Positions 1 to 22,444 of a stretch of DNA of 29,566 nucleotides are shown one piece after another. The stretch's first letter is position 1. Each line of letters opens with the position of its first letter. This DNA is from a virus. Below the pieces are notes generated by a model, which was not told the DNA's origin, did no database searches, and worked only from the letters and a program-made list of their open reading frames with translations. The translations under genes and the position numbers were made by a program. The stretch spans positions 1 through 29,566 of IMG/VR virus record IMGVR_UViG_3300034106_001119; one strand, given 5' to 3'.

Positions 1-1
1 C

Positions 2-775
2 GGTGGGCAGCGCATGGCTGGGTCTACCCCGGAACAACAAGCCGCTCGGCAAAGCGTGGCTGGTATGCAGCAGCCCGGTCAATTTGCTGCTGGTACTGGG
101 TTAGCAGGGGCAGGGGGTTTAAGTGCTTTAGGTGCAGGTCAACAGTATATGGCTATGGCTACCGACCCGATGGCGCAGCAAGCCTTTATGTCTCCTTATA
201 TGCAGAACGCGGTTGAACTGCAAAAGCAAGAAGCCATCCGTGACGCTCAGAAAGGGCAGTTGGCTCAGAACTTGGGCGCGGTCCGTCAGGGTACATATGG
301 AGGTGCACGTCAACTTCTTGCTGGTACCGAGCGTGAGCGCAACCTACAACAAAATCTAGCAAACATTCAGGCTGCGGGGTCTCAAAAGGCTTACGAAGAT
401 GCAATTCGTGGTATGCAATTTGGCACTACGGCTGGACTACAAGGTGCTCAAGCCGCTTCTCAAGCCGGTGCTACATTAGGTCAGTTGGGTATTGGTCAGC
501 AACAGGCAGGTATTGACTTGGCTAAAGCCCAAGAAGCCTTTGGTGGAATGGGCCAAGCAGAACAGCAGAAAGCCCTTGACCTCCAATATCAAGACTTCTT
601 ACAGCAACAACAGTATCCGTATAAGCAACTTGGCTTTATGTCTGACCTCCTGCGCGGTAGCGCAAACCTTGCGGCTACTGGAGGTAAGACTGTTTATGAG
701 GCACCTCCGTCCGTGGGCGGACAACTTCTAGGCGCTGGGTTAGGTGCAGCATCTATTTACAATCTTCTGAAGTGA
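2..775 (+). CDS. Gln/Ala/Gly-rich virion protein, 5'-truncated
   Basis: The frame is open from base 2 to the stop at 775, so this is probably the C-terminal part of a longer protein cut by the window edge. The first ATG is at 14 and has only a GGTGGG stretch before it. The visible 253+ residues are rich in Gln, Ala and Gly and contain YMSPYMQNAVELQ and GAVRQGTYGGARQ followed by a long coiled-coil-like Gln-rich stretch. That layout resembles internal or tail-associated structural proteins of environmental podovirus-like phages, from memory of such proteins and not from a search. The C-terminus (GGQLLGAGLGAASIYNLLK) is a short glycine-rich hydrophobic tail. It is followed after 7 bases by the next + strand gene and probably shares its late transcript. 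The exact virion role is unknown. Confidence 0.72.
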   Translation, partial: GGQRMAGSTPEQQAARQSVAGMQQPGQFAAGTGLAGAGGLSALGAGQQYMAMATDPMAQQAFMSPYMQNAVELQKQEAIRDAQKGQLAQNLGAVRQGTYGGARQLLAGTERERNLQQNLANIQAAGSQKAYEDAIRGMQFGTTAGLQGAQAASQAGATLGQLGIGQQQAGIDLAKAQEAFGGMGQAEQQKALDLQYQDFLQQQQYPYKQLGFMSDLLRGSANLAATGGKTVYEAPPSVGGQLLGAGLGAASIYNLLK

Positions 776-782
776 GGCTGGC

Positions 783-2057
783 ATGAGACAAATTAGTATG
801 ATGTCGCCACAAGAAATTGCAAGTAAATACGGTGGCGATAAACGCAAAATTGCACAAGCCGTTCAAAACGGGTTATTGGACCCTACCGCCGCTGCAATGG
901 CGGGTATGTTAATTGATCGCATTCGTGCTTCGGCTGCACAAGAACAACAACCCCAAACTACGGTTGCTGAAGATACATTAGGTGGAAGGCCAATGCCGTA
1001 TGAACGGTCTGAAGTTCCTTCAGGTGGTGTGGCTTCCTTGCCTGTTGATGAGTCTATGTACAACATGGCTGGTGGCGGCATCGTGGCATTTGCCGGGGAA
1101 GATGGCTCCGAAGTTGACTTAGATGCGATAACTAGACAGATTAATCAAGACAGTGGGCGTGGCGGGGAAGATAATCTAGGTCGTGCTCGTGAGTACGTAA
1201 ACCTATACAGGCAGTTGTACGGCGACGTTAAGCGTGGTCCCGCATCGGAAGAACTCACCAAGTTTATCCAAGGGTACGGCCCTCGTGCTCAAGAGTTGGC
1301 TTCTAAACAACGGGCTGCAACCGGCTTGCTCGCGGCTTCTGAACTCTTATCTACCCGAGGTTCTCTGTCTAAAGCCCTTGGTGCCGCAGGTAAAGTTGCC
1401 GCCCCCGGGTTGCAAAAAGCCATAGAAATGGAATCCTCAGCCCAAGAAAAGTCGCTTCGTGACCGCGCAGGGTTGGAAGAAAAAAGACGCCTTGAAGAAC
1501 TTGAAGCCATCAAGGGTGGCATGGGTCTATATGGTAGAGAGCAAGAACGTCTTGCTAGTGCAGATAAAACTACAGATTTTACGCGACGCTATAACTTAAT
1601 GCTTCCAGATATTATGAGACAGATGGGAATCGACAACTCTAATGATCCTAGAGTTCAAGCCGCAACTGTTAAAGCCGTTGATGCTAGTATAGGTATGGCA
1701 GGACAGCGAGTGGATATACAGCAACAAGGTGTCGGTGTCCGTGCAACAGAAGCAGAAACAAACATTGAAAAAGCCATTACTGATGCAAATGCAAAAATTG
1801 ATAAAGACTACAAAACTAAGATTTTAATGGCTTCGGATAATCCAGCAGAGCAAAAACGTTTAACAGCAGAACGTGATGCGCTAAAAGCAAACGAAGCCCG
1901 TCGCATTAGACGTGACAGGGTTGGCGCTGCCCCAACATCAGGTAGTGCACCTACAAGCGCACCTACTGGATTACCTGCGGGGGCTAAACAGATAGGTACT
2001 TCAGGTGGTAAACCAGTTTTTCAGTTGCTTGATGGTAGCCAAGTAGTCGCACAATAA
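783..2057 (+). CDS. Putative virion structural protein, 424 aa
   Basis: An ATG at 783 lies just after a GTGAGG stretch and 7 bases after the previous stop. The protein has an N-terminal helical segment (PQEIASKYGGDKRKIAQAV), a Gly-rich motif GGGIVAFAGEDG near residues 97-108, a long charged helical middle with likely coiled coil (about residues 210-270), and a Ser/Thr/Pro-rich linker before a short C-terminal beta-like segment (AKQIGTSGGKPVFQLLDGSQ). The GGGIVAF type of motif recurs in structural proteins of environmental phages in my recollection. The gene sits between two virion-type genes on the same strand. No enzymatic motif is visible and the precise role is not known. Confidence 0.7.
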   Translation: MRQISMMSPQEIASKYGGDKRKIAQAVQNGLLDPTAAAMAGMLIDRIRASAAQEQQPQTTVAEDTLGGRPMPYERSEVPSGGVASLPVDESMYNMAGGGIVAFAGEDGSEVDLDAITRQINQDSGRGGEDNLGRAREYVNLYRQLYGDVKRGPASEELTKFIQGYGPRAQELASKQRAATGLLAASELLSTRGSLSKALGAAGKVAAPGLQKAIEMESSAQEKSLRDRAGLEEKRRLEELEAIKGGMGLYGREQERLASADKTTDFTRRYNLMLPDIMRQMGIDNSNDPRVQAATVKAVDASIGMAGQRVDIQQQGVGVRATEAETNIEKAITDANAKIDKDYKTKILMASDNPAEQKRLTAERDALKANEARRIRRDRVGAAPTSGSAPTSAPTGLPAGAKQIGTSGGKPVFQLLDGSQVVAQ

Positions 2058-2067
2058 GGGGTCTTAT

Positions 2068-5000
2068 ATGGCCTTCGTGCCTTTTACTGGTAAGTTGGAT
2101 GCGCCACAGGAAGAACAAACGCCTAAGTTCATGCCTTTTACTGGCAAACTAGATGCGCCTGTTCAAGAGGGGGCAAACTTTGTTCCTTTTTCCGGCAAAC
2201 TAGACGAGCCAAAAGAAGCCAAACCCGCACGGGAATACCAAGACATTGCTGAAACACCAATAGTTTCACCCGAAGAATCTCTGACTCCCCCTCCTCCTGC
2301 TAAATCTAAAAGCATTATGGAGGGCTTTGTTCCTCCTGCTACGGGCGACGTTCGTATGGAGTTGCCTGATTTAAGCAGCCAGCAACGTAAAGTTTATGAC
2401 GCGGCTACACCCGCACAACGTAAAGAACTGCTCAAAAAAGATCCAGCCTTTAAGCAAATTGACGAAGCCTATCAACTACGTGATGCGCAAGTGCAGGCAG
2501 ACACGACTAAAAAATCAGGTCTTTATAAGACTGCAATTGACCCCTATTTATTTGATACCCGTGCCGAGCATCGTAAGGATGCCCTCGTTAAACAAGGACT
2601 TGATGTTGAGTTAGCCGAGACTACGGCTCGTCGTATGGCCTACGGTGGGGTTGAAAGCAAGCGCAATCCGTTTGGGGAAATTACTGAATCTCCGTCTGAG
2701 TATGAAATGGCTGAAGGGTTAAAGTACGACCCCCGGGCAAGTGGAGTTGAACAGACTGCACAGGTACTTAAGCGTGCAGGAACCAAGGCATTTGTTGGGC
2801 TAGGTCAGGCTGGCGGGGGTATGAACCGCTTTATGGGCGACATTCTTGGCCTTGATACTTCTGAAACTGTAGACCGTCTGGAGTCGATGGAGCGATTTAG
2901 TCAGGCTATGGGTACTCCGGCTTCTAAGCCTGTGGCTATCATCGAAGGCGCAGTAAATTCAATTGCACAGCAACTGCCAGCCTTAGTAGGTGGCGTACTG
3001 ACTGGCTCCGAAGGGTTAGTACTTGCTTCTATGTTTGCTAATTCGTTTGGTCAAAACTATGACGAAGGACGACGTAAAGATTTGGATGTAGGCGCTGCTA
3101 CTACCCGTGCCGCTGCCAATGCAGCCTTTGAAGTAATAGGTGAAAAGTTTGGCTTGAAAGAACAACTGGCTGGTATTAAAGCAGCCGCAAGCAACGTACC
3201 TACCACTGAAATTATTAACTACTTTTCCAAAGCACTTGTTAAAGAGATTCCCGGTGAACAACTTACATACGCTGGGCAGTTTGCAGTAGATAAAGGCTTT
3301 GACATGAACCCCGAAGCGGGTATTAGGGCGTTTATTGAGGGTGCCGTCGATACGATGGCTTCTACTGTGGTACAAGGTGGTCTGATGATGGGTGGCGGCG
3401 CAACGGTCAATAAGATTGTCCGCAGTGTTGCAAAAGAAAAACCTGAAGTCATTCAAGCCATACCAAGTGCCCTAGAACTAGCAAAGAGCAAAGGGTTCTT
3501 ATCTGAGAAAAAACAGGCTGAAGTTAGGAAAGAAGATAAAGACATAGCACAAGAAGCCGCTGCTAATACTGCGCAAACAGCACAAGCCGCTCCATTAAGT
3601 GACACTGGGATGCTGTATGCCGATACGGTTACTCGGTTTCAACAACAAGGATTTGCACCGTCCGATGCCGCTCGGCTTGCCGAGGAAGAACTAAAGGAGT
3701 CCGGTTATGGATCTGATGAAATTGAAGCCGGAAAACGTGAGTTTGGCCTTTCAATGTATAGCGGGGCACCACCCGCTGACGGACTTGCCGCTAGAACTAC
3801 AGAAACTTCAACCGGAAGAGTGGAACCAACTGGCATACCTACTGGTGGCGTTGGAGATAGAGCAGAGGATGTCACTGATACATTAACTGGAAGAGTAGAA
3901 CCAACATTACAAACAGAAGCCGCTAAGGTTGAAGATACTCGTACCACACCAGATCTAGCGTCAACTGGATTACAGCCCAAGGGCAAAAAGTCTACTGGTA
4001 GACCCAAAGTTATTCTTACCCCAGAGCAAAAAGCAGAAAAGGCCGCAGCCCGTAAGGAAAGCCAACGTACAAGTATTGCTACTAGCCGTTCGGTAGACAA
4101 ACTAACCCAAGTTCTTGACGAACCTTTTAACCCAGAAGATTTTCCTGATGAGCAGTTATTAAAGGAAGCCCAAGAAACCCGGGATGCTGAAGTTATTGAG
4201 GCATTGGTTGGGGCTATCCGTATTGCTAATGATCCTAAATTTCGTAAGAACAAGGCTACTGGTCAACGTGCTAAAGCCCTTGTGGATAGGTTTGCACCTA
4301 CAGACCGGATACGCCAGATTGCTGAGGCTCGTGCCAAACTAGGTGAACCCTCTAAATCATTAAGTACCACAACAAATGAGCATGACCCGGACCTTATGGG
4401 GTTTAGCGATGCTCAAAAGTTATTGGGCTATATCAAAGGTTTTGGTACTGCATTTGAAAGAATTCTGGCAGACCGCCTTCGCCCCGCACTTAAAGGGGTG
4501 AGTGTAGTACATGTAGCAGATCCCGCTAGAGATATTCTTGACGACAAGGCTAGGGGTTCTTTTGATAACGCTTTGGGTCTGTACTTTAATAAGGCTATTT
4601 ATCTTAACGCCAATCCAAATGAGAGTGGAGAAAACAACGAGACCGCTTTGCATGAAGCATTGCATGCGGGGACTGTGTCTATAGTTGAAAAATACCTTAC
4701 TGACCCCGGTTCGCTGACTGCAAATCAATTGCGTGCGATGGCGCAGTTAGATGACATCCGTAACCGTGCATTTGAACATTATGAGAAACTTGTAGAACAG
4801 GCTGAGGCTGATCCGCAGTTTGCAAGGGCTAACGCCAAGATGCTGGCTAAGTTGTATAGCCTAGCCGACCCAAACGGGGCTAACGTATTTGGGGATCTTA
4901 AGGAGTTTATTTCCTATGGAATGACTCAGCCGGAGTTTCAAGAGTTCTTGATGCAGGCACCGGGGTCGTTTGATCCTAAGACTAACCGTATTACTGGCCT

Positions 5001-8000
5001 CTTTACCCAGTTTGTTAATGCGCTGCGCAATCTGCTTAATATGGGTCCAGAGCATATGTCGGCGCTCCAAGATCTCATCATTGTTACGGATCGGCTGATT
5101 AGCCCCGCTCAACCAGAGATGAATGCAGGCACCCCTTCACTTTCACGTAAGGCTAAGAAAGCAAAAGAAAGTGATGCTAAGGTAGATAAGGATCTACAAA
5201 AAGTACAGGCTTCGTATGACGCATTTACCGTTGCTGACTCGACGGGTTCAATGATTCGTGAACGGGGTATTGGTCAATATTTACCCATGTTGAACTCCCG
5301 CTTCAAGGATATGGGCAATGACTTTATCCGTAAGTTGCTATACGGAATGCAGACTGTGGACATTCTTCGTTGGAAAGGTGACGAGATTCCCGGCTTGGTA
5401 GATGTAGATAAGATTCAGCAAGAAATGTCGGCAATGAAAACTTCGTTGCTTAACGCCTCGGCTAAACAGGCTGATAAGTTAGCGGCGTTTGTGCGTAAGA
5501 ACGGGATAAAAGTAATTAGTACCACAATGCACTTGGCCCGTCTAAAGAAAGTTAACCCAACCGAGTTTGCTACGCTTGCCGAAGCCCAACAGAAAGACCC
5601 TGTTGTGGTGCACTACGAAAAAATTCTAACCGACCAAGCCTATCGGGCGAAGTACAACCTTGATGCCACGCTGACCCCTCAGCAAATTGGTCTGTATAAG
5701 AAAAAGCAAGATGATCGTCGCGCAAACTTAAAGATAGTCTATGACTCTTGGGATGCGCTTGGAAAGCAAAAGAATGGGCATGAGATGTATAAGATGGTGC
5801 GCCAGTTCTACAAGGATAACTACCTTGCAATGCGGACCATACTAGATGACCAGTTAAACGCCCTGCCCATAGACGCTGCGGCTAAGGCTAAGTTATTAAA
5901 ATCTGTTCGGTTGATGCAAGAAGAAGCCAAGGGTGCTCCTGATCCTGACTATGACGGTATGACTTTGAAGCAGTTGCCGGAAGAGTACTTCCCGTTTAAA
6001 CGGCATGGCGACTACTGGCTAAGAGTTACAAAAGGTCCAACTGGACGGGAGTTTTATACCTTTACAAGTGGCGCAGACCGTAACGAGTTTTTACGTATTC
6101 GTGCAGCGCAATTAGGCAAGAACCCCAATGATGGGGGTGAGTTTGTTGCCGGAGATGATTTACGTTCGCTACGTGAAGACTTTTCAACCGATAGCGCGAT
6201 GCTACAAAAGATGTTTGCGGCTATTGAAGATGCCCAAGCAGATGGGCGCTTTGATCCCGCTAAGTATAAAACTGAGGCGGATGCCAAGGCTGCGTTTGAC
6301 CGCTACCGTGAAGAACTCAAAGACCAACTATATCAGGTCTACTTGATGACTCTGCCCGAGCGTAGTTTCCGTAAGCAGTTTTTACACTCTGAAAACGTAA
6401 CGGGTTTTAGCGCTGATGTATTACTTAACTTTAAGAAATCCGCTACGTCTTACGCAAACCAACTAGCAAAACTTAAATATGCCAACAGCATTCGGGATCA
6501 AGTTCAGCGGGCTAGGGATTCTTTAGAGGGGATGCCCCCACTTGAGCGGGCTAAGTTAGAGTTATTTGTTGACGCCATACAAGATATAGCAAACGATGAA
6601 ATAGACCCACCCCCCGAGGGAAAGGCTGCAAACCGTATAAACCAGTTTGCTTTCGTAATGTTATTGACTAGTGGTGCTACTGCGGCAACTCAGATGGTTT
6701 CTATACCGGCTATGGTCCTGCCTACACTTGCCGAACGACATGGTAACTTTGCTGCAAGTAAAGAGTTTTTGCGGTTTGCTACCTTCTTTAAGACAACAGG
6801 AGTGACAAAAAAGCAGCCTAATGGGGATGTGGAGTATACCGCGCCCTCTATTGGTTCTTCTTCGATGGTTCGTAATGACCCCATCTTACAGCGTGCATTT
6901 CAAGCGGCGCTTGATCGACAGGTAACTACACTTACTAATACTTCAGTATTAACTAATAGAAACCGCACACCAGAAAATGCCTACGAAAGTATCCCCGGTG
7001 TAGCCGCACGGGTTTCGTTTAATACCATGACTGCCCTGTTTAACGGTGCAGAGCGCATGAGCCGTGAGATCGCCTATATGATGGCGTTCAAATTAGAGTA
7101 CGCAAAGACTGGCAACTTTGAAGAGTCTGTAGACAAAGCCGTTGATACTGTCCATGAATTACTAGGTCGTTACGATAACTTTAACCGCCCCCGTATATAC
7201 CGTAACTTCGTAGGTAAGACTGTTGGTCAATTTAAAATGTACGCGACGTTTATTACGTCATGGTTTGTTCGCAATGGGTACACCGCTTTTACCGAAGGCA
7301 TGGGCAACAAAGAAGGCCGTGCTGCTATGCAGCGTTTGACAGGCGTTTTAGTTATGGGCGGTCTTTTCCACGGACTTGTCGGGCAGCCGTTGTACTCCAT
7401 GATTTGCAGTGTAATTGACGCAGTACTAGATGCTACTGAGGACGAAGAAGAAAAGCGTGCACGCCTCGCTAAGAACCCCCTAACCGCTGGGAGTTCTAAC
7501 TTACGCTTCCGTTATGAGTTTCTACCCAAATACTTTGGGCATATTGAAATAACTGGGTTAGACGGTAAGAAACATCGTCTCAGCGAAATACTGGAGAAAG
7601 GTCCAATCTCGGTACTCAGCGACATCAACGTCGGTTCTCGCACATCTTACGATGGTATTTGGTTCCGTGAAGCCAAACCGGGAAAGAACTGGCAAGAGAC
7701 GGTAGAAAACTATGTTAAAGAAAATTTAGGCCCCGGTATATCTACTGGCTTAAATATGGTTGGAGCAATTGATGATTTCAATGATGGTAAATTATTGCGT
7801 GGTGCAGAAAAGTTAACCCCTGCTTTCTTCAAAGCACCTCTAACTTCTTACCGGTTAGCAACAGAGGGTGCAGAAACCAAGGGTGGTGCAAAAATTTTAA
7901 AGCAGTCTGAAATTACAGACTTAAACTTAATAGCGAGTGCGTTAGGTTTTCAATCTTCCCGTTTAGCACGGATTCAAGAGCATAATTTTGCTATGGAACG

Positions 8001-8298
8001 ACAAAGAGTCAAAGCAGAAGATAGTAAAAGTGATGCGCTGCGCAAGTTAAATGAGACCGTGTTTAACGCTGAGAAAGAACCGGGCGACATCAAGGCTGCT
8101 ATTGCTAAGATACGGGAGCACAATAAACGCTACCCAATGGAAGCCTTCCTAATTGATGGGGATACGATTGACCGCTCGATTGAAGGTTACGGTGAAAAAC
8201 TTGGTTTGACCTATCGCGGACTACGTATGTCAGAAAAACTTCTTCCTTATCTTATGCCTTCCGCTCGTATAGCGGCTCCTGTACCACCAAAAGATTAG
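2068..8298 (+). CDS. Giant virion-associated (polyvalent-like) protein, 2076 aa
   Basis: This is the largest gene in the window, starting 10 bases after the previous stop behind a GGGGTC stretch. Residues 3-13, 21-31 and 38-48 are three near-identical repeats, F-V/M-P-F-T/S-G-K-L-D-A/E-P. A Pro/Thr-rich region with repeated TGRVEPT lies near residues 580-620. A zincin-like motif HEALH is at 862-866. Hydrophobic segments occur near residues 300-320, 1525-1550 and 1755-1785 and could cross a membrane. Size, position at the end of a virion block and the mixture of domains fit the internal ejected proteins of podoviruses or the phage polyvalent proteins, which often carry zincin-like peptidase domains. 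This role is inference. Apart from HEALH no confident catalytic site is visible. Confidence 0.72.
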   Translation: MAFVPFTGKLDAPQEEQTPKFMPFTGKLDAPVQEGANFVPFSGKLDEPKEAKPAREYQDIAETPIVSPEESLTPPPPAKSKSIMEGFVPPATGDVRMELPDLSSQQRKVYDAATPAQRKELLKKDPAFKQIDEAYQLRDAQVQADTTKKSGLYKTAIDPYLFDTRAEHRKDALVKQGLDVELAETTARRMAYGGVESKRNPFGEITESPSEYEMAEGLKYDPRASGVEQTAQVLKRAGTKAFVGLGQAGGGMNRFMGDILGLDTSETVDRLESMERFSQAMGTPASKPVAIIEGAVNSIAQQLPALVGGVLTGSEGLVLASMFANSFGQNYDEGRRKDLDVGAATTRAAANAAFEVIGEKFGLKEQLAGIKAAASNVPTTEIINYFSKALVKEIPGEQLTYAGQFAVDKGFDMNPEAGIRAFIEGAVDTMASTVVQGGLMMGGGATVNKIVRSVAKEKPEVIQAIPSALELAKSKGFLSEKKQAEVRKEDKDIAQEAAANTAQTAQAAPLSDTGMLYADTVTRFQQQGFAPSDAARLAEEELKESGYGSDEIEAGKREFGLSMYSGAPPADGLAARTTETSTGRVEPTGIPTGGVGDRAEDVTDTLTGRVEPTLQTEAAKVEDTRTTPDLASTGLQPKGKKSTGRPKVILTPEQKAEKAAARKESQRTSIATSRSVDKLTQVLDEPFNPEDFPDEQLLKEAQETRDAEVIEALVGAIRIANDPKFRKNKATGQRAKALVDRFAPTDRIRQIAEARAKLGEPSKSLSTTTNEHDPDLMGFSDAQKLLGYIKGFGTAFERILADRLRPALKGVSVVHVADPARDILDDKARGSFDNALGLYFNKAIYLNANPNESGENNETALHEALHAGTVSIVEKYLTDPGSLTANQLRAMAQLDDIRNRAFEHYEKLVEQAEADPQFARANAKMLAKLYSLADPNGANVFGDLKEFISYGMTQPEFQEFLMQAPGSFDPKTNRITGLFTQFVNALRNLLNMGPEHMSALQDLIIVTDRLISPAQPEMNAGTPSLSRKAKKAKESDAKVDKDLQKVQASYDAFTVADSTGSMIRERGIGQYLPMLNSRFKDMGNDFIRKLLYGMQTVDILRWKGDEIPGLVDVDKIQQEMSAMKTSLLNASAKQADKLAAFVRKNGIKVISTTMHLARLKKVNPTEFATLAEAQQKDPVVVHYEKILTDQAYRAKYNLDATLTPQQIGLYKKKQDDRRANLKIVYDSWDALGKQKNGHEMYKMVRQFYKDNYLAMRTILDDQLNALPIDAAAKAKLLKSVRLMQEEAKGAPDPDYDGMTLKQLPEEYFPFKRHGDYWLRVTKGPTGREFYTFTSGADRNEFLRIRAAQLGKNPNDGGEFVAGDDLRSLREDFSTDSAMLQKMFAAIEDAQADGRFDPAKYKTEADAKAAFDRYREELKDQLYQVYLMTLPERSFRKQFLHSENVTGFSADVLLNFKKSATSYANQLAKLKYANSIRDQVQRARDSLEGMPPLERAKLELFVDAIQDIANDEIDPPPEGKAANRINQFAFVMLLTSGATAATQMVSIPAMVLPTLAERHGNFAASKEFLRFATFFKTTGVTKKQPNGDVEYTAPSIGSSSMVRNDPILQRAFQAALDRQVTTLTNTSVLTNRNRTPENAYESIPGVAARVSFNTMTALFNGAERMSREIAYMMAFKLEYAKTGNFEESVDKAVDTVHELLGRYDNFNRPRIYRNFVGKTVGQFKMYATFITSWFVRNGYTAFTEGMGNKEGRAAMQRLTGVLVMGGLFHGLVGQPLYSMICSVIDAVLDATEDEEEKRARLAKNPLTAGSSNLRFRYEFLPKYFGHIEITGLDGKKHRLSEILEKGPISVLSDINVGSRTSYDGIWFREAKPGKNWQETVENYVKENLGPGISTGLNMVGAIDDFNDGKLLRGAEKLTPAFFKAPLTSYRLATEGAETKGGAKILKQSEITDLNLIASALGFQSSRLARIQEHNFAMERQRVKAEDSKSDALRKLNETVFNAEKEPGDIKAAIAKIREHNKRYPMEAFLIDGDTIDRSIEGYGEKLGLTYRGLRMSEKLLPYLMPSARIAAPVPPKD

Positions 8299-8300
8299 GT

Positions 8301-8331
8301 GAAAAAAACCCCCGGTTTTTAGGCCGGGGGG
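8301..8331 (-). terminator. Convergent hairpin terminator with minus-strand U-tract
   Basis: Stem CCCCCGG (8309-8315) pairs with CCGGGGG (8324-8330) around an 8-base loop. On the + strand seven A (8302-8308) precede the hairpin and no T-tract follows. Read on the minus strand, the hairpin is followed by seven U. It is therefore a canonical intrinsic terminator for the leftward operon, while the + strand late transcript ending at 8298 gets a hairpin without a U-tract. Confidence 0.8.
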
Positions 8332-8417
8332 AATGTCCGTTACGGACCACCAAGAAGGAGCAAAGGCCGCGAAGCCGATGCAAGACAACCGAGGAGAGGG
8401 CTGTCCAAATCAGTATA
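8332..8417. other. Non-coding convergent gap
   Basis: This is the rest of the gap between converging genes. It contains a short interrupted palindrome, GTCCGT-T-ACGGAC (8335-8347), which could extend the 3' structure of the + strand message. I see no ORF of note, promoter or RNA gene here. Confidence 0.5.
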
Positions 8418-8612
8418 TCAAACTCGCCACACTCGTAAACCCCTTATCCCCTCTTCGATCACAACTTTCGTCAATACAGGTATCTTTAGTCTGTTTGTAG
8501 TACAAAGTATTTCTTGCTTCGCTTCCTTTGGATTCAGGCAAGGGATAAAGAACGAAGTCCCCCGCTTGAACTTGCGCCAATCAATCTGATAACTGACTTT
8601 CTCCACCCGCAT
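8418..8612 (-). CDS. Small conserved-looking phage protein, 64 aa
   Basis: This is the last gene of the leftward operon. Its ATG lies inside the 3' end of the primase-helicase gene, a 32-base overlap. The product is basic and compact, with DWRKFKRGTSFFIPCLNPKEAKQEI followed by RLKIPVLTKVVIEEGIRGLRVWRV. The alternating pattern in the second half suggests beta-strands. I recall similar short proteins beside phage replication genes, without a known function. The coherent amino-acid pattern, the translationally coupled position and the terminator about 90 bases downstream support a real gene. No catalytic motif is seen. Confidence 0.7.
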   Translation of the reverse strand: MRVEKVSYQIDWRKFKRGTSFFIPCLNPKEAKQEILCTTNRLKIPVLTKVVIEEGIRGLRVWRV

Positions 8613-11424
8613 TTGATGCCACCAGTCCGTCCATATTTAAGAAATCATTGCCTGAGCAATCAAAGATTAAGCAATGCACTCCCGGCGCTACCACTTTCAT
8701 GCCCTTGGATAGCCGTTTGTTAGCGGTGCCTATGAAGATACCCTTCTTTTGCAAGTCAGTCAGGGTGTCTTTGTAGTTAACTTGGAACTTAACACAGTCA
8801 TTCTTAAACGGCTTGGCGGCTACGAACATCTTCTTAGTATCTGGCTCATAGCGTATTAGCAGTTCGCCTCTAGGCTCCAACGTGGGGGCATACGGCATAT
8901 TAGAACGGCGGTCTACCTCGTCATTTACAACCACAATGTTCTGCATATGCCTGTTGATGTAGTCCCCCACGATAGCCATGACATCAGCCACAGGAGGCTT
9001 AACTTCCTCACGCAGACCCAGAATCATCTTGGTTGCCCACTTGTAGATGACTTTCATATCCCAGTCGATCAGGCCACAGGTCTTAGCAATCAAACCACCC
9101 GTGATGTTGGCTGCGGCTACTGCCGACCAGAAGCGTTCCCGCTGGGTTAGTTTTAGTTCCTTGTCGATCTTGGCTTGAATACCTAACGCCGTATTCTTTG
9201 CCTCTTCTAAATTATCTATAAGCCACTTAGCGTACACGTCTCCCGCATGCCCAAAGTTCTCCATCAACTGATGGTCAAACATCTGCTTGGCTACGCTCAT
9301 CTCCAAAGTATTGGTAAAGTCTATTTTGTACTCTATTAACCGCATCATCTCGCCATCGGGGGTGTTCTTTAGCGAGGCCATCTTTTCGTAGAACGACGCA
9401 TTTGATGAGCACAGGGATATGCACTGCCACGAAGTCAGGTTTAGGCGCAGTTCGTTAGCAGATGATTTAACCCGATCCTTACCCCGCCCTTGGGACATTC
9501 CGTAAGACAAAGTAGAAAAGTCTGCGGGTGTAGTGTTGGTCATCTCGTCCACGGTGAAGCACAGATTGTTCATAACCCCTAGCCGTAGGAACTTGGCGTT
9601 CAAGGTGTCATCCCACATAGCCGATAGACGGGTCGGGTGCCCGACTACGCTGTTAGCCATCTTCAGGATGGTGGTCTTGCCTGTACCTGAGTCAGAGTGA
9701 ATGACGTTGATGATTGCCCCGTTCTGCCCAAGAAACTTGAGAAGCGGCGAACCAAAAGCACTCAGTGCCGCAAACGCATGGGGTTCCAATCCCGGCTTGC
9801 CATAAAGATTAAATACTTCCTTCCATTTAACCATGTCCCCAGTTGGTTGCATGTGTTGAGCAATGTTATGGGTCGTAGATGAAGGGGGACTATGGAATGT
9901 ACCGTCACGGGTTATTTCCCTATCTCCGATGATGAACTTGCTATCAGCATCAGTCCAACCAAATTGTAATCTCATAAGTTCTGCTTTCCTTTTAAACTGT
10001 AGTTCCCTGATGGATGCAAACACATACTCCGTCAGATTGTTAAATGCCTTTGTTCCGCAAACTACCCCATGACTAGATAACTCTTTACGAAATTCAGTCT
10101 TATCGGTCACGCTGCGGTTGGGTATCACAAATTCTTTAACTCCGTCCCGTGGCAGATGCAGTTTCATTACGACTACCTCACCTTGCACAGGATCGCGCAT
10201 ACGCTTTACAACGTACAAATCGTGCTCGTAAACAAAAATTGGATCTGATTCTTGATCGGGCGGCATGCGGTAAATGCCACCGTTCTTACCCCGAAAAAAT
10301 GGACTGGGATACTTGGGGATGGTGTGAACTTCATCATCTTCGCCCTCTTCTTCAGAGGTAACTATCACCTCATTGTCTTCTTCCGTGGCTTCAAGGATCT
10401 CTTTGCCAAGCGAAATGGGAGACTTAATCTTACCCTTATGGGGGCATCCATCGCACCCACCGGGGTTACTCTTTTCAAACTCCACGCAAGAGTGTGGGCC
10501 TAGTATGTGCCTAACCTTGTGCTCGGTATCATGGTAGTCATAGTCGGGGTGGTCTTGGGACATCTTGTGAATCGCCACATCCCGGTCTTCACAAAACTTA
10601 GCGATAGATAAAGCGTCAAACCAGCGTGGCTCAGATAGACTCTCCCTATCTTCGTATGCCGATAGCAATTGCGGACACCCTGTACCCCCGGCACTCTTGA
10701 TCATGATCTTCTTAAATGAAGATACAGAGTTAACCATCATGGACTTAGCAAGGGCACTAAGTTCCCGCTTGGGTGGCGCTTCACTTTCTTCTTTAACGCC
10801 TAGTAAATTACGGAAGGTTTGATATTCAACTTCAGGAGCGGTGCCAAGTATTTCTACTTGTGTAGGTGGCTCATCTTTAAAGTTATACGTCCCCGGTATT
10901 CTAAGTACACGGGCTACCTCAAAAACTTTCCCATCAATATGAAAATTATGTAGTACACATAGTTCGCGCAGACGGTCAGCAACAGGTTCCCATTGTCCTC
11001 GTGTAACTGGTTCGGTCAGCGCCCAGTACACATGGATGCCTCTACCGGAATTAACCAGTATAGGTTTGGGTAGACCAATTAGTTTGCAAAAGCGTTGTAA
11101 CTCCTGCATGCCCGTAGCCTGATCAACATACCCATCGGGGCGACCAGTCTTAGAATTGATCTCTGCTTTGCCTTCACCGCAATCAATATCCAACCAAAAT
11201 GCTTTGAGGGCTTTGACGTTATCTTTTAAACGGTTCTTATTTGTCTCGAACTTGGCGACGCCAAAGTACACATTCCATTTATTCTGGACGTATTCTTGCG
11301 TTCGTGTATCTAATTCTTCTCTTGTAGCAACCAACTCCTGACGAACATCATCACCTCGTATGCACAGTAATGCAAACCACCCATCGGGCGGCTGAACAAT
11401 ACTTAAAAGGTCAACGTTGGTCAT
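8581..11424 (-). CDS. Primase-helicase, DUF927-like, 947 aa
   Basis: This probably primes and unwinds DNA at the phage fork. The N-terminal region has archaeo-eukaryotic-primase-like features: FWLDIDCGEG near residues 70-80 supplies acidic metal ligands, and NSGRGIHVYW near 125 matches the SxH-type motif. A cysteine/histidine cluster (HSCVEFEKSNPGGCDGCPH, about 312-330) may bind zinc. The C-terminal half is an ATPase with Walker A SDSGTGKTT near residue 580 and Walker B LCFTVDEMT near 621, consistent with DUF927/SF3-type phage primase-helicases. The start at 11424 encodes MTNVDLL but has no Shine-Dalgarno directly before it, and a terminator-like hairpin lies only 6 bases upstream, so expression may be attenuated. 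It overlaps the downstream 64-residue gene. Confidence 0.82.
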   Translation of the reverse strand: MTNVDLLSIVQPPDGWFALLCIRGDDVRQELVATREELDTRTQEYVQNKWNVYFGVAKFETNKNRLKDNVKALKAFWLDIDCGEGKAEINSKTGRPDGYVDQATGMQELQRFCKLIGLPKPILVNSGRGIHVYWALTEPVTRGQWEPVADRLRELCVLHNFHIDGKVFEVARVLRIPGTYNFKDEPPTQVEILGTAPEVEYQTFRNLLGVKEESEAPPKRELSALAKSMMVNSVSSFKKIMIKSAGGTGCPQLLSAYEDRESLSEPRWFDALSIAKFCEDRDVAIHKMSQDHPDYDYHDTEHKVRHILGPHSCVEFEKSNPGGCDGCPHKGKIKSPISLGKEILEATEEDNEVIVTSEEEGEDDEVHTIPKYPSPFFRGKNGGIYRMPPDQESDPIFVYEHDLYVVKRMRDPVQGEVVVMKLHLPRDGVKEFVIPNRSVTDKTEFRKELSSHGVVCGTKAFNNLTEYVFASIRELQFKRKAELMRLQFGWTDADSKFIIGDREITRDGTFHSPPSSTTHNIAQHMQPTGDMVKWKEVFNLYGKPGLEPHAFAALSAFGSPLLKFLGQNGAIINVIHSDSGTGKTTILKMANSVVGHPTRLSAMWDDTLNAKFLRLGVMNNLCFTVDEMTNTTPADFSTLSYGMSQGRGKDRVKSSANELRLNLTSWQCISLCSSNASFYEKMASLKNTPDGEMMRLIEYKIDFTNTLEMSVAKQMFDHQLMENFGHAGDVYAKWLIDNLEEAKNTALGIQAKIDKELKLTQRERFWSAVAAANITGGLIAKTCGLIDWDMKVIYKWATKMILGLREEVKPPVADVMAIVGDYINRHMQNIVVVNDEVDRRSNMPYAPTLEPRGELLIRYEPDTKKMFVAAKPFKNDCVKFQVNYKDTLTDLQKKGIFIGTANKRLSKGMKVVAPGVHCLIFDCSGNDFLNMDGLVASNAGGESQLSD

Positions 11425-11429
11425 GGTTG

Positions 11430-11450
11430 AAAAAGGGGGATTGCTCCCCC
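11430..11450 (-). terminator. Terminator or attenuator before the primase-helicase
   Basis: Read on the minus strand, GGGGGA (11450-11445), loop GCAA (a GNRA-type tetraloop) and TCCCCC (11440-11435) are followed directly by TTTTT (11434-11430). The start codon comes 6 bases later. This is a textbook intrinsic terminator shape in the 51-base gap after the HTH gene. No promoter is visible between it and the start codon, so read-through or antitermination seems to be required. Confidence 0.72.
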
Positions 11451-11475
11451 AAAGGCTCCTCTCCTAAGCCGACTG

Positions 11476-11709
11476 TTATTTGGTTATGCGTGCTAAGTAA
11501 CGGGTAACTAAGTCAACCATCATGGGCTGAGGTGAACTCTTTCCCATGAACCAGTTGTACAAAGTCTGCCGACTGACGCCCAGCGCACTTGCAACTGTGC
11601 TTACTGAGATGTCCCCCTTGATGCACGCACGCCCTAGCCGCACACCAAGGTTTTCCTTGTCAGCCTGTTTGTTTAGCGCAACCAGTTTCGCGCTATACCC
11701 GTAACTCAT
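11476..11709 (-). CDS. HTH DNA-binding protein (XRE/Cro-like), 77 aa
   Basis: A helix-turn-helix is visible in the middle (SVSTVASALGVSRQTLYNWFMGKSSP, about residues 35-60), with the usual Ala, Gly and Tyr-Asn-Trp spacing of Cro/XRE-type proteins. The protein is small and basic, as phage regulators often are. Its ATG shares one base with the TAA of the ssDNA-binding-like gene (TAATG), so it is translationally coupled. A terminator-like hairpin follows 26 bases downstream. It could be a phage transcriptional regulator, and its target is unknown. The palindromes at the operon 2 promoters are reasonable candidates, but nothing in the sequence proves this. Confidence 0.75.
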   Translation of the reverse strand: MSYGYSAKLVALNKQADKENLGVRLGRACIKGDISVSTVASALGVSRQTLYNWFMGKSSPQPMMVDLVTRYLARITK

Positions 11710-12611
11710 TACTCGTCAGCCCATTTGCTAACAACATCAGCAAGATTGACCTTTTCCTTTGGTGGCTCAGGTTTCTTGACCGTGCGCTTAACAGGCTCCT
11801 CAATAACTTCGTCTTCTGGCTCATCCGAGCGAGACACTTTTTCAACAGGTTTGGGCACAGCCTTCTGTTCAATTGCCGGGGGCTGCTTCTTTACACCGTC
11901 TGCTTGCGCAACGGTAATCATGGTGTACATCTTGGTCTCAGGCTTAGACTGAGCGGCCCGGACTAATTCGTACTCTTCGTCACTAACATTACGCAACGGG
12001 GTAAACAGCAACTCCATAGAATCCGCATTCAGATCATAGGAGACGTTAGTCACTACGTTGTCGGGCGACTCACCGTTAGCAAGAAGGTACTTGACATAAG
12101 ACTCGAACGGATGCACATTGCCCGTACCCTTACCAAACAAAGATTTAGCAGGGACATTGAACTGATACACGTCGCCTGAGTTATCACCCTCAACTAGCAC
12201 AGAGATACGACGTTGGAAACGGCAAGCACGACCACCCTGCTTACCCGAACCCTTGATGTTCTGAGGGCAGTCAGCACAGTTTGTATGCTGTTTATTCGCA
12301 GCCGCTGCTTCGGGCTTGTCACCCAAGTTAGACCAACAATCGGGTAGAGTAGGCGCCGCATTGGGATCATATTCTGCTTCGTAGTAGGTACGGGAAACTT
12401 TGGGTAATGCGTGAAGAATGATCACATTGATCTCACCGCGCACAGCGTTACCAATTTGCTCCCCGTTAACCATACGCTTAAATGTACCGTTGGTATTGGT
12501 TTGAATGCGGCGTGATTGCGATGCCGTGCTTAAAGACCTAGCAAGATCACTAAGTTCCCTAGCACCGGTAGTAGTAACTGCACCTTGTTTGAAGATTGAA
12601 ACGTTGCTCAT
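11709..12611 (-). CDS. Putative ssDNA-binding/replication accessory protein, 300 aa
   Basis: The protein starts behind AAGGAG with good spacing. It has a Ser/Ala-rich N-terminus, a probable beta-rich core (residues about 45-225) and a cysteine cluster (NCADCPQN, then RACRF, about 111-131) that may bind zinc. A Pro/Lys/Glu-rich low-complexity linker follows, ending in the acidic hydrophobic tail VVSKWADE. A flexible linker plus acidic tip is typical of single-stranded DNA-binding proteins, and the neighbours are replication and recombination genes. I recall similar proteins annotated as phage SSB-like or hypothetical. Assignment to a specific family is not possible by eye. Confidence 0.62.
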   Translation of the reverse strand: MSNVSIFKQGAVTTTGARELSDLARSLSTASQSRRIQTNTNGTFKRMVNGEQIGNAVRGEINVIILHALPKVSRTYYEAEYDPNAAPTLPDCWSNLGDKPEAAAANKQHTNCADCPQNIKGSGKQGGRACRFQRRISVLVEGDNSGDVYQFNVPAKSLFGKGTGNVHPFESYVKYLLANGESPDNVVTNVSYDLNADSMELLFTPLRNVSDEEYELVRAAQSKPETKMYTMITVAQADGVKKQPPAIEQKAVPKPVEKVSRSDEPEDEVIEEPVKRTVKKPEPPKEKVNLADVVSKWADE

Positions 12612-12620
12612 AAAGACTCC

Positions 12621-13040
12621 TTATTTCTTGGTTGGTTTACGGACTTGCACGGTATATTTGCGCTCGGCTTGCATACCCACAGGGAAAGCATCGGGGTTGA
12701 TTTCAAGGAACTCGCGCATGTTAGTGCCGTGGATTCTTTGCTCCAGTAGGAAAGGTGCATCGTGCTCTTTGATGAACTGATACATCGAATCCCAATCGCT
12801 CGTCCAGTACCGTGTTGAAATCCGGCGAGAGATTGTTCCTACTGGTGTTCTAATGCTGTCAATGTTTTGCGTGTTGCAATGACCCAATAACTCCCCTGCT
12901 ACAACATCAAACTGAACTTGTAGTTCTTGTACTTCTTGCTTGTGTTGTTCTTCTTTCTCTTGGATTGCATCACGTAACTTTAAATACACAGATACCAACT
13001 TGTTAAGGTCAACTTCGACCTTATCTGCTACTTCACTCAT
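12621..13040 (-). CDS. Conserved phage protein with N-terminal coiled coil, 139 aa
   Basis: This is the first gene after the promoter near 13,080, with AGGAG spaced well before the ATG at 13040. Residues about 10-50 form a charged helix, probably coiled coil (LVSVYLKLRDAIQEKEEQHKQEVQEL). The second half carries RTPVGTISRRISTRYWTSDWDSMYQFIKEH and a RIHGTNMREFLEINPDAFPVGM stretch. I recognise this layout from phage proteins often placed beside ssb/recT-type genes, usually annotated hypothetical or nuclease-inhibitor-like. The function is unproven. It is followed 9 bases later by the ssDNA-binding-like gene, which suggests a shared role in DNA replication or recombination. Confidence 0.7.
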   Translation of the reverse strand: MSEVADKVEVDLNKLVSVYLKLRDAIQEKEEQHKQEVQELQVQFDVVAGELLGHCNTQNIDSIRTPVGTISRRISTRYWTSDWDSMYQFIKEHDAPFLLEQRIHGTNMREFLEINPDAFPVGMQAERKYTVQVRKPTKK

Positions 13041-13063
13041 GGGTATGCTCCTACGACTTGGTG

Positions 13064-13099
13064 AACTACTATTGTATCATAACATTTGACTTTGTCAAA
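13064..13099 (-). promoter_or_regulatory. Promoter with palindromic operator-like -35
   Basis: On the minus strand, -35 TTGACA (13098-13093), a 16-base spacer and -10 TACAAT (13076-13071) preceded by TGA (an extended -10) predict a start near 13,064, 24 bases before the 139-residue gene. The -35 lies inside the palindrome TTTGAC-TTT-GTCAAA (13085-13099). The stop codon of the SNF2 gene is also inside this palindrome. Confidence 0.78.
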
Positions 13100-14702
13100 C
13101 AGTTTCTTCTATTTCCTGTCGGTACAAGTCAATTATTTTATTGTGGTTTGTAATGTTGTTTTGCAACATGTAATACAACTTAGATTCTACTTCACTACCC
13201 TTGATATGCACCACAGTCATGGCATTTTTTTGCCCCGGACGGTTGATACGTGCATTTGCTTGTAGGTAAGTTTCTACGCTCGTTACTGGTGCGTACCATA
13301 TCACGGTATTGGCGGCAGTCAGCGTGAGACCGTGTGAGGCGGCTTGAGGCTGTATGACAAGCACGTAGGGGTTAGGGTTTTCCTGAAATTGCTTGACTAA
13401 TTCAGTACGTTTATTTACCGAAACCTGTCCGTTAATTACCCCGCAAGTTATGTTGTTCTTTTCAAGGAACGCTTGAAGAAGTTCAATAGTGTGTGTAAAT
13501 GGTACGAATACTAGAACCTTATGAGACGACTCTTCGATCACCTCAAGAATTACTTGTAGTCTGTTACTTACATCAAACTCTATAACCTCCCGTGTGTCTG
13601 AGTAAACTGCACCGCCCGAGATTTGCAATAGTTTGTTGATGTTAGTCGCCGCATTGACTGCACTAACGGATTCCCCACCCGCCGTGATCATCATTTGCTT
13701 TTTGAGGATCTTATAAAACTTGGTTTGTTGGGCGGTTAGCGGTGCGTCTCGTTCAACGTAGGTTACTTCTGGTAAGTCTAGGCACTGGTCTTTCTCGAAC
13801 CGGATAGCGGGCTGTAGAATTTTATGTACCACACCTTGCGCCCCGGGCTTGGGAATCCACCGATACTGGGACACCTTATACATAACCTGATCCCGGTATT
13901 GCCCATAGTATTTAGGGGTGCCATCGGGGTTAATCAGCCTACCCAATCCAAAGGCATCCAAGGGGGACTGAGCCGCCGGGGTGCCCGTCATCATCCAGAA
14001 CCACTTGGTTTTGGCGGCTACCTCTTTAAGGATCTTCCAACGGTTAGTTTGGGCATTCTTGTAGGCCGAGGCTTCATCGACAACCACCATATCGAAGCCA
14101 CCTTCAATAATCTCATCCTTAACTACCGCCAACCCATCAAAGTTAATAATTACGTACTCAGAGCCAGCATCAATTATTTTCTTACGGATACGTGCGTCGC
14201 CATAGGCTACGGAACAGGAGCGGTGCATCGCAAACTTGAATAGGTCGTTCTGCCAAGCCGACTTCATGATGGAGAGGGGGCAGAGCACCAACACCCGCTT
14301 GACCTCCCCAATCTTCATTAAATAGTCCGAGGCCCATATTACGGAGGCAGTCTTACCCGTACCCTGCTCGTTAAAGCAGAATGCCCGCTTGTGCAATGTT
14401 AGAAAAGATGAAGTCTCTTTTTGATGGTCAAACGGCTTTAGTTTCCCAGTCCATTGGTAGTCCCGCTTGATCGTAGACGGTACCCCTTTGATGCGCAGTT
14501 TGGCTAGGGACTGTGCTTCTAATAGCCCCCAATTAACTGCCACATCGTATATATCCTCGGTCTGGTTTACTACTGCACTCTTCTTGATTTGTTCTGTTAT
14601 TAGGTGTGGTCGTCTTGTCCGAACCAAAAGCACCTTGTCATTTAGTATTTGCACGCTTTCTTTCCCGTGGACTTGTTTCCGATACCAGTTTCTTGTTTGC
14701 AT
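13095..14702 (-). CDS. SNF2-type DEAD/DEAH helicase (SF2), 535 aa
   Basis: This is an ATP-dependent DNA translocase or helicase, likely in replication or recombination. Motif I FNEQGTGKTASV is near residue 110, motif II VVVDEASAYKN (DEAS) near 207, motif III MMTGTPAAQSP near 235, and motif VI QANARINRPGQK near 500, in the order expected for SNF2-like SF2 enzymes. FNEQGTGKT followed by PLSIMKSAWQNDLFKF is characteristic of phage SNF2 helicases. I chose the ATG at 14702. A TTG three codons earlier is also open. Both overlap the 3' end of the HNH gene, implying coupling. The stop codon at 13095-13097 is embedded in the operator-like palindrome of the next promoter. Confidence 0.9.
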   Translation of the reverse strand: MQTRNWYRKQVHGKESVQILNDKVLLVRTRRPHLITEQIKKSAVVNQTEDIYDVAVNWGLLEAQSLAKLRIKGVPSTIKRDYQWTGKLKPFDHQKETSSFLTLHKRAFCFNEQGTGKTASVIWASDYLMKIGEVKRVLVLCPLSIMKSAWQNDLFKFAMHRSCSVAYGDARIRKKIIDAGSEYVIINFDGLAVVKDEIIEGGFDMVVVDEASAYKNAQTNRWKILKEVAAKTKWFWMMTGTPAAQSPLDAFGLGRLINPDGTPKYYGQYRDQVMYKVSQYRWIPKPGAQGVVHKILQPAIRFEKDQCLDLPEVTYVERDAPLTAQQTKFYKILKKQMMITAGGESVSAVNAATNINKLLQISGGAVYSDTREVIEFDVSNRLQVILEVIEESSHKVLVFVPFTHTIELLQAFLEKNNITCGVINGQVSVNKRTELVKQFQENPNPYVLVIQPQAASHGLTLTAANTVIWYAPVTSVETYLQANARINRPGQKNAMTVVHIKGSEVESKLYYMLQNNITNHNKIIDLYRQEIEETV

Positions 14703-14943
14703 CACGGTCAAAGGAGCGGTTGGCTGATGCCTTAACTACCTTCAATCCATCTTTATTTGTACCACCTTTTGACATGGCTTTGACGTGGTGGACATCTGTA
14801 CCGTCCCCCTTTGTTGCCTTGCCTTCACGGAGGGCTTTACGCCGTGCGTTGTTACGTTGAGCACGGTTCTTCTTTTGTTCTTCGGTTCCTTGATATTCTT
14901 CGTACTCTTTTTTGTACGGGCGGGGTTTGTTTACGTAGGGCAC
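14638..14943 (-). CDS. HNH-type nuclease, 101 aa
   Basis: This is a small basic protein. A Lys/Arg-rich N-terminus (about residues 1-45) precedes DVHHVKAMSKGGTNKDGLKVVKASANRSF, which matches the HNH core: the paired His, then Gly-Gly, then two Asn positions. The GTG start at 14943 has GGAGAA 4 bases upstream. HNH proteins in phages cut DNA in packaging, recombination or homing. Here the gene lies between a PD-(D/E)XK nuclease and a SNF2 helicase and overlaps the latter by 65 bases, so it looks like a resident component of the replication block rather than a homing intruder. Substrate specificity cannot be read. Confidence 0.75.
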   Translation of the reverse strand: MPYVNKPRPYKKEYEEYQGTEEQKKNRAQRNNARRKALREGKATKGDGTDVHHVKAMSKGGTNKDGLKVVKASANRSFDRDANKKLVSETSPRERKRANTK

Positions 14944-14955
14944 AGGGTTCTCCTT

Positions 14956-15627
14956 TCACCGTTTACGGTTGTGCTCACAGGCTATCACAGGACAGAACTT
15001 ACATAAAGGGCCAGTATTAGCGTTCCATACTCCTGATTCTTGAGCAGCAGCAAGGCGATCTAGTCCCTCGTCAAACGTGGAAAAATATGAGTCCCGCATA
15101 TTGGCGGTATGTTCTTTGTGGATAAACTCCCCGCTAATTACAAATACGAGGGCTGACTTTATCTTTTCGACTTGGGGGAAGTGGGTGAATAGCGCGGCGG
15201 CTAGTATGTCTAACTGTTTCATGTCTGCATACTTGGCGTTTTTGCTAGTCTTGTAGTCAACCGAGAAAGCCAAGGTGTCCTTAACAATTACCAAGTCCCC
15301 GATGCCACGCCACCACACATCTTTATCAAAGAACCCGCATGGCTCGTACCCAGTCGGCGTGCGCTTGACACCCAGTTTGAGTTCGCAATGCTTTTCTCCG
15401 TCGATGATATTGAATGCCTCGCAGATGTCTTGGAGGAAAGGAAACTTCTTGGGTATGGGCGTACCTAGTTTTATGTATTCTTCAGCAGCCTTATGTACTT
15501 CTTGTCCATAGATTGTAGCCTCGCTACCTTCGTCTTTTACGTCTTTAACAATACGTAGGTGGTAGTACTTTTTAGGGCACTGCTCGAAAGTTTTTAGTGA
15601 TGAGTACGACCACGTAATATTGCTCAT
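14956..15627 (-). CDS. PD-(D/E)XK exonuclease, Cas4/RecB-like, 223 aa
   Basis: The protein has the PDDEXK_1/Cas4 layout: SYSSLKTFEQCPKKYY at residues 7-22, YGQEVHKAAEEY at 40-51, the catalytic aspartate in GIGDLVI (D111), VDYKTSK with D124 and K126, and QLDILAAALF after it. Cys17 plus Cys209, Cys212 and Cys217 (CKFCPVIAC) could hold a 4Fe-4S cluster as in Cas4 and AddB. It probably resects or processes DNA ends during phage replication or recombination. Its ATG overlaps the stop of a 14-codon mini-ORF (ATGA), and AAGGAC precedes it. An HNH gene and a helicase follow. Confidence 0.85.
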   Translation of the reverse strand: MSNITWSYSSLKTFEQCPKKYYHLRIVKDVKDEGSEATIYGQEVHKAAEEYIKLGTPIPKKFPFLQDICEAFNIIDGEKHCELKLGVKRTPTGYEPCGFFDKDVWWRGIGDLVIVKDTLAFSVDYKTSKNAKYADMKQLDILAAALFTHFPQVEKIKSALVFVISGEFIHKEHTANMRDSYFSTFDEGLDRLAAAQESGVWNANTGPLCKFCPVIACEHNRKR

Positions 15628-22415: not shown

Positions 22416-22444
22416 AAAATAAAAAAGCCACCCGAAGGTGGCTT
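22416..22444 (-). terminator. Operon 1 intrinsic terminator (UUCG tetraloop)
   Basis: Read on the minus strand, AAGCCACC (22444-22437), loop TTCG and GGTGGCTT (22432-22425) form an 8-bp stem followed by a T-tract interrupted once (TTTTTTATTTT in total). It is a strong canonical terminator with the very stable C(UUCG)G loop, 31 bases after the stop of the last operon 1 gene. Confidence 0.9.

Follow-up and report, generated by a model that had tools for sequence, protein, structure and literature searches.

A conserved hairpin ahead of a phage primase-helicase gene is a candidate spacer for a split ribosome-binding site

The window analyzed here, meaning the whole stretch of DNA, comprises 29,566 bases of a virus record, and the leader of interest lies on its minus strand between a small HTH gene and a primase-helicase gene (Table 1). 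The primase-helicase protein matched PHROG primase/helicase families and Pfam DUF927, as well as two solved chains, "Active helicase" (E 6.5e-10) and "Pathogenicity island protein" (E 4.9e-7). The best upstream promoter candidate on the minus strand, TTGACA-16-TACAAT, directly follows an SNF2-like helicase gene and probably starts the transcript that reaches, and ends with, the primase gene. On the strength of this consensus match and the terminator-like one 3' of the primase gene, the HTH and primase genes appear to form one short operon. Elsewhere on the minus strand, at 22425-22444, a terminator-like hairpin (AAGCCACC-TTCG-GGTGGCTT followed by TTTTATTTT) overlaps a naive GTG start at 22431; either that ORF start is probably wrong or the terminator lies inside the ORF.

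Table 1. Positions of the HTH-primase leader elements and of the surrounding features in the window
Feature	Position	Strand	Detail or basis
Promoter-like TTGACA-16-TACAAT, near-consensus extended -10	13071..13098	minus	11/12 consensus matches; consensus match only
Upstream HTH gene, 77 aa, HTH_3 match	11476..11709	minus	Pfam
HTH stop TAA	11478-11476	minus	10 nt ahead of AGGAGAGGAG
Purine-rich SD-like site AGGAGAGGAG	11465-11456	minus	5 nt upstream of stem
Spacer CCTTT, SD-like site to stem	11455-11451	minus	sequence
Hairpin 5' arm GGGGGA	11450-11445	minus	6 pairs with TCCCCC
Loop GCAA	11444-11441	minus	sequence
Hairpin 3' arm TCCCCC	11440-11435	minus	whole hairpin 11435..11450, -11.2 kcal/mol
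T-tract TTTTT	11434-11430	minus	gives the hairpin its terminator-like look; ends 5 nt before ATG
CAACC, T-tract to start codon, without SD	11429-11425	minus	sequence, SD energy
Primase-helicase gene, ATG 11424, 947 aa (DUF927)	8581..11424	minus	conserved N-terminus
Strong terminator-like hairpin with T7, 3' of primase gene	8302..8330	minus	consensus match only

An earlier note on this sequence had placed the element GGGGGA-GCAA-TCCCCC-TTTTT between the HTH gene and the primase-helicase ATG, with no Shine-Dalgarno (SD) site after it and the nearest purine-rich site upstream. This anatomy is borne out: the element occupies 11450-11430, 5 nt before the ATG, the purine-rich site is AGGAGAGGAG at 11465-11456, and the 20 nt leading up to the ATG have an SD energy of +2.2 kcal/mol, poorer than at any other of the 27 minus-strand candidate starts, some of which are naive ORF calls. 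At 18 of the 26 others the SD energy ranges from -5.1 to -12.0 kcal/mol, so the phage does use SDs. The upstream site AGGAGAGGAG reaches -8.3 kcal/mol (1.2% of shuffles equally low). It lies outside the stem, and some of its bases can pair with other positions in the minimum-energy fold of a 90-nt stretch. The hairpin is the strongest found within 60 nt upstream of the 27 candidate starts and has a predicted helix probability of 1.0 in context. The window leader alone is nonetheless not extreme, as shuffling the 51-nt intergenic stretch gave an equally stable hairpin in 17 of 200 cases (p 0.085) and 14 of 200 shuffles of the 90-nt stretch folded equally well (z -1.46). Terminator-like patterns as a class were not enriched (17 in positions 1-15000, versus 15.2 +/- 4.3 in shuffles), and Rfam 15 covariance models at the gathering score gave no match in the window. 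A chance hairpin is thus possible for the window alone; the significance of the hairpin comes from its relatives.

Related loci were collected from five IMG/VR scans (four of which contributed the best 80 loci of more, an incomplete sample), one prokaryote-genome scan, and two phage records. The resulting 279 loci and the window made 280 sequences, many loci being one contig fetched repeatedly, and 275 of these gave a usable leader (L115, L116, L117, L031, and L039 were left out). At 80% leader identity, 93 leaders were nonredundant, and an HTH homologue was the upstream ORF in 91 of these 93 loci (L085 and L275 were missed). Removal of L030, a mis-started copy of the L005 leader, left 92, among which the gap between the HTH and primase ORFs was 30-90 nt in 76 and outside that range in 16. 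A 600-aa cut excluded one locus (L207) from the tree.

A hairpin of -6 kcal/mol or better was present in 74 of the 76 HTH-primase junctions, compared with 6 of 68 controls, which were co-directional junctions elsewhere in the same loci, matched in length range and taken from naive ORF calls. The hairpin beat 95% of its own shuffles in 52/76 HTH-primase junctions; p 0.05 was reached in 6/68 controls. These comparisons lead us to reject a chance hairpin, and they agree with the conservation in relatives that the earlier note had proposed to check. The stems are diverse (GGGGGA/TCCCCC, CGGAAGT/ACTTCCG, CGGAGAC/GTCTCCG, CGGTAC/GTACCG, GAGCCGTG/CACGGCTC, and more). Compensatory changes are clear from the alignment of the L006 group (A5, nine hand-picked sequences whose flanks align without using structure): four of seven pairs changed on both sides, a count matched in 1/500 shuffles, and pairing held in 98.4% of cells, a level reached by 0/500 shuffles. 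Covariation was weak in the GCGG group (A7; one both-side pair, 121/500 shuffles as high), and no pair with a both-side change was found in the alignment of the window's SD-upstream clade (A9). The GGCG group (A8) was aligned and left uncounted because its register shifts one base between subgroups. The flanks of L256, CCCCTTAGTGGC...CCGAATGA, are nearly those of the L006 group, with the primase elsewhere in the tree and different stem letters, a likeness that suggests module exchange or strong constraint.

Fifteen of the 92 leaders are without a hairpin (L060, L063, L068, L137, L026, and others). Their HTH-primase gap is -14 to 23 nt, placing the primase start near or overlapping the HTH stop, which suggests that translational coupling replaces the hairpin there. 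The sixteenth out-of-range leader, L085, is listed with a 192-nt gap, yet a stop codon also closely precedes its ATG.

We then considered the position of the SD relative to the hairpin. The window's clade has 25 rows (SH-aLRT 92, slightly below the starred level) and 18 hairpin leaders, and in 15 of these 18 an SD lies directly 5' of the hairpin (exceptions L005, L053, and L052). The shared order is SD, 0-5 nt, hairpin, 7-12 nt, ATG, with the T-tract present or absent, and the SD-ATG spacing of 27-34 nt falls to 8-15 nt with the hairpin folded. In the window itself the spacing changes from 30 to 14 nt when counted from the duplex, or from 31 to 15 nt from the last G of AGGAG. The resulting 14-15 nt are a long effective spacing for an SD. 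Nineteen leaders, hand-picked among those with a hairpin near the ATG, were examined for their SDs. Seventeen had the same order, with an SD of -3.9 to -10.6 kcal/mol no more than 16 nt ahead of the stem and without a stronger one farther upstream, at 25-34 nt raw spacing and 6-15 nt minus the hairpin. Singly, the upstream SDs reached p 0.05 against shuffles in only 11 of the 19, and the rows are related. In the alignment, the SD core and CTTGGGGG are retained and the 20 nt before them drift. The layout also occurs with an unrelated stem in L235 (AAGGGGG-hairpin-GAAGGC-ATG), an ideal case with 6 nt from hairpin to ATG.

Among the 76 leaders, 32 have the hairpin no more than 12 nt from the ATG, and 17 of these have an upstream SD (-5 or better); of the 44 with a more distant hairpin, 8 do (p 0.0026, without correction for the tree). 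Downstream SDs showed the opposite trend. On the tree, the split-layout label needs at least 10 changes. In L087 a strong SD precedes the hairpin but the ATG follows it by 25 nt, so that the SD is too distant even with the hairpin folded; the same holds for some other distal leaders. Predicted ensembles of 21 leaders, hand-picked on the same basis as the 19, gave only moderate accessibility (mean unpaired 0.38 for the SD and 0.50 for the AUG) and a mean hairpin formation of 0.88, with L160 at 0.13 in that register. By eye, the upstream SD (CGGAG) of L047, L049, L004, and L050 sits within the loop of a second small hairpin, TGGAC-ACGGA-GTCTA, which adjoins the main hairpin on its 5' side. In L052 this second pairing is retained (TAGAC/GTCTA) and the SD is lost.

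The earlier note had offered two readings, that transcription is attenuated or antiterminated or that the hairpin brings the upstream site close to the ATG, and the second is the better supported because the SD stands directly 5' of the hairpin in most leaders of the clade. We consider it somewhat more probable than its negation that the primase-helicase gene has a split (accommodated) ribosome-binding site whose intervening structure is this hairpin. In this mechanism, the 30S subunit would pair with AGGAG, 5 nt upstream of the stem. Once folded, the 16-nt hairpin would no longer lie in the path, and the 31 nt separating SD from AUG would shrink to about 15 nt, bringing the AUG, which follows a 10-nt A/U-rich tail, to the P site. 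The sequences show the anatomy, the retention of hairpin and upstream SD in the clade, and their independence of the T-tract; use of the upstream SD by ribosomes is our inference. Weighing against this reading are the long effective spacing, the three exceptions in the clade, the alignment of the clade without both-side changes, the modest significance of single SDs, the moderate accessibility, the many changes of the label on the tree, and distal leaders such as L087. The tail takes the form of a U-tract in the subclade of the window, where the same hairpin may also end a fraction of transcripts, lowering primase relative to HTH expression.

The hairpin also occurs outside this layout. Sister clades keep it with the SD after the hairpin, and at the cutoffs used 17 of the 76 leaders, most of the L006 group among them, have no SD on either side of it; from both observations it follows that the hairpin must have another or older role. 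Judging from these comparisons, the hairpin at the HTH-primase junction may have existed before it came to serve as an SD spacer. It could even be a general intercistronic hairpin with a different job, to which nearness to the ATG is secondary: protection or processing of the HTH mRNA 3' end, shielding of the primase start against ribosomes coming from upstream, or recognition by a phage protein that binds there. The presence of the hairpin in nearly all junctions irrespective of SD position, together with the leaders that have an SD on neither side, would fit such a job, as would the distance from HTH stop to stem (24.3 +/- 6.5 nt), which varies no more than that from stem to ATG (16.4 +/- 7.5 nt). 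We nevertheless regard this account as rather unlikely, given that the SD-hairpin-ATG order in the window's clade would go unexplained and that the high variability of stem sequence and loop speaks against a single protein-binding motif.

The attenuation reading fits the shape of the window hairpin, which resembles an intrinsic terminator, with a GC-rich 6-pair stem, a 4-nt loop, and T5 (d-score 18.1). However, only 21 of the 76 related junctions, and 7 of 18 in the window's clade, have a terminator-like score, and the T-tract is not conserved along with the hairpin. The terminator-like leaders comprise members of the window's subclade and of a separate clade of 14 rows, plus scattered rows. 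Among leaders with the upstream-SD layout, L134, L140, L160, and L173 have A-rich tails such as AAAAAGCAA, and L062, L066, and L070 have A/T-mixed tails. Also in the window's clade, L048 and L052 have T-rich tails yet score below zero, in L052 because another hairpin was chosen. On this evidence the T-tract is dispensable within the same clade, which supports the split ribosome-binding site. With only 10 nt between stem and ATG, any primase mRNA begun at a promoter farther upstream must run through the hairpin; and because there is no room for a promoter of the primase's own, complete termination cannot be the rule. As far as sequence comparison goes, the hairpin is probably not primarily a terminator.

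A partial intrinsic terminator or attenuator could still be its main role. Most transcripts would then stop once past the HTH gene; the primase gene would be reached by the remaining fraction, or by an antiterminated polymerase, and translated from a U-rich, SD-less leader. Beyond the shape of the window hairpin, the separate 14-row clade is consistent with this: 10 of its leaders are terminator-like and combine T4-T6 tails with very strong hairpins, and an SD-like site mostly follows the hairpin. The stem also begins 25 nt past the HTH stop, so a terminating ribosome need not block it. We find this role possible but doubtful, since most related junctions are without the T-tract, 11 of the 18 leaders in the window's own clade do not score, a co-directional gene begins 10 nt past the stem, and the SD retained directly 5' of the hairpin is left unexplained. 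That any termination is partial is likewise our inference.

One hairpin might also hold both jobs, acting as a U-tract terminator on naked transcripts after the HTH gene and as the spacer of a split ribosome-binding site for the primase. Primase translation would be started by a 30S subunit sitting some 5 nt ahead of the stem, and termination would face competition from the loading of such subunits onto the neighboring SD. The output of the replication protein would thus be tied to ribosome supply, and related phages would have kept one job only. We judge this combination quite unlikely.

Other ways of starting the primase gene were considered. A promoter of its own between hairpin and ATG was rejected, as only 10 nt are available, and a consensus scan of the minus strand from 12977 to 11424 gave no sigma-70-like match. 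The plus-strand 2076-aa ORF at 2068-8298 led us to consider an N4-like hairpin promoter read by a virion RNA polymerase. The C-terminal part of this ORF matches PHROG DarB-like antirestriction and unknown families, with no polymerase among the PHROG matches and no Pfam match, and the candidate was rejected. It is highly improbable that the true start is instead the TTG just past the upstream SD (SD-CCT-TTG in the window), opening either a short uORF through the hairpin or an extended primase. A TTG does follow the SD by a few nucleotides in the window and the CTTGGGGG leaders, and by eye that of L073 is in frame with the primase ATG. Also by eye, however, the 28-31 nt from TTG to ATG give no common frame, stops follow immediately in L140, L070, and L168, and the L047/L049/L004 group has no TTG there. 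The primase N-terminus, moreover, is invariant at M1, D5, L6, and L7 across 14 aligned relatives.

The isolated Rhizobium phage RHph_TM3_14A (L117; primase 24% identical) has by eye an apparent GC-rich hairpin (GGCGGGC...GCCCGCC, 4624-4650) before the primase and an SD-like AGGGGTG after it, but its upstream gene is not the small HTH gene. Pseudomonas phage Rollin (primase 30% identical) has a 21-nt gap with a normal AGGAGG.

Split ribosome-binding sites have precedents in phage T4, for which the primary papers are reportedly those of Nivinskas from 1999 and of Malys and Nivinskas from 2009. In the literature covered, which lay largely outside subscription journals, we found these T4 precedents only and nothing on the leader of the present phage group. 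A review of post-transcriptional control in T4 describes a fold in the SD-AUG spacer that cuts the distance from 22 to 5 nt in gene 38 and from 27 to 11 nt in gene 25, and states that destabilizing mutations lower initiation (PMC3014915). The same review places the gene 25 arrangement in close T-even phages and not beyond (PMC3014915). The present case is like these in anatomy and in its clade-limited conservation: an SD too distant from the AUG, with a spacer hairpin that would bring the two together, at the intercistronic junction of a phage late or replication-era gene. As in the T4 type, the window has no SD at the normal distance and one within 20-35 nt upstream (at 30-31 nt) with the hairpin between. 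The present phage group and gene, however, are unrelated to those of T4, and the effective spacing is 14-15 nt as against the 5 and 11 nt reported there. The T4 cases, in the same accounts, have mutational proof, whereas ours is a case from sequence. What is new here is the U-tract superimposed on the hairpin in the window's subclade and the sister lineages with a hairpin at the same junction and the SD after it. For T4 gene e and Aeh1 mobE, the same source names hairpins that mask the ribosome-binding site (PMC3014915). Like those, as described there, the present hairpin lies at the translation initiation region of a phage gene; unlike in those, the SD is outside the stem, directly 5', and is not masked.

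To a gene finder the primase gene would seem to have no ribosome-binding site, and a terminator finder would end the operon at the hairpin; both would probably be wrong. If the split ribosome-binding site is real, an independent phage lineage would join a translation layout described, in the accounts available to us, for two T4 genes, and a spacer hairpin could look exactly like a terminator. The relatives would then form a natural series, with the T-tract present or absent, the SD before or after the hairpin, and the hairpin itself absent in some, for testing how a spacer hairpin is tolerated between SD and AUG.
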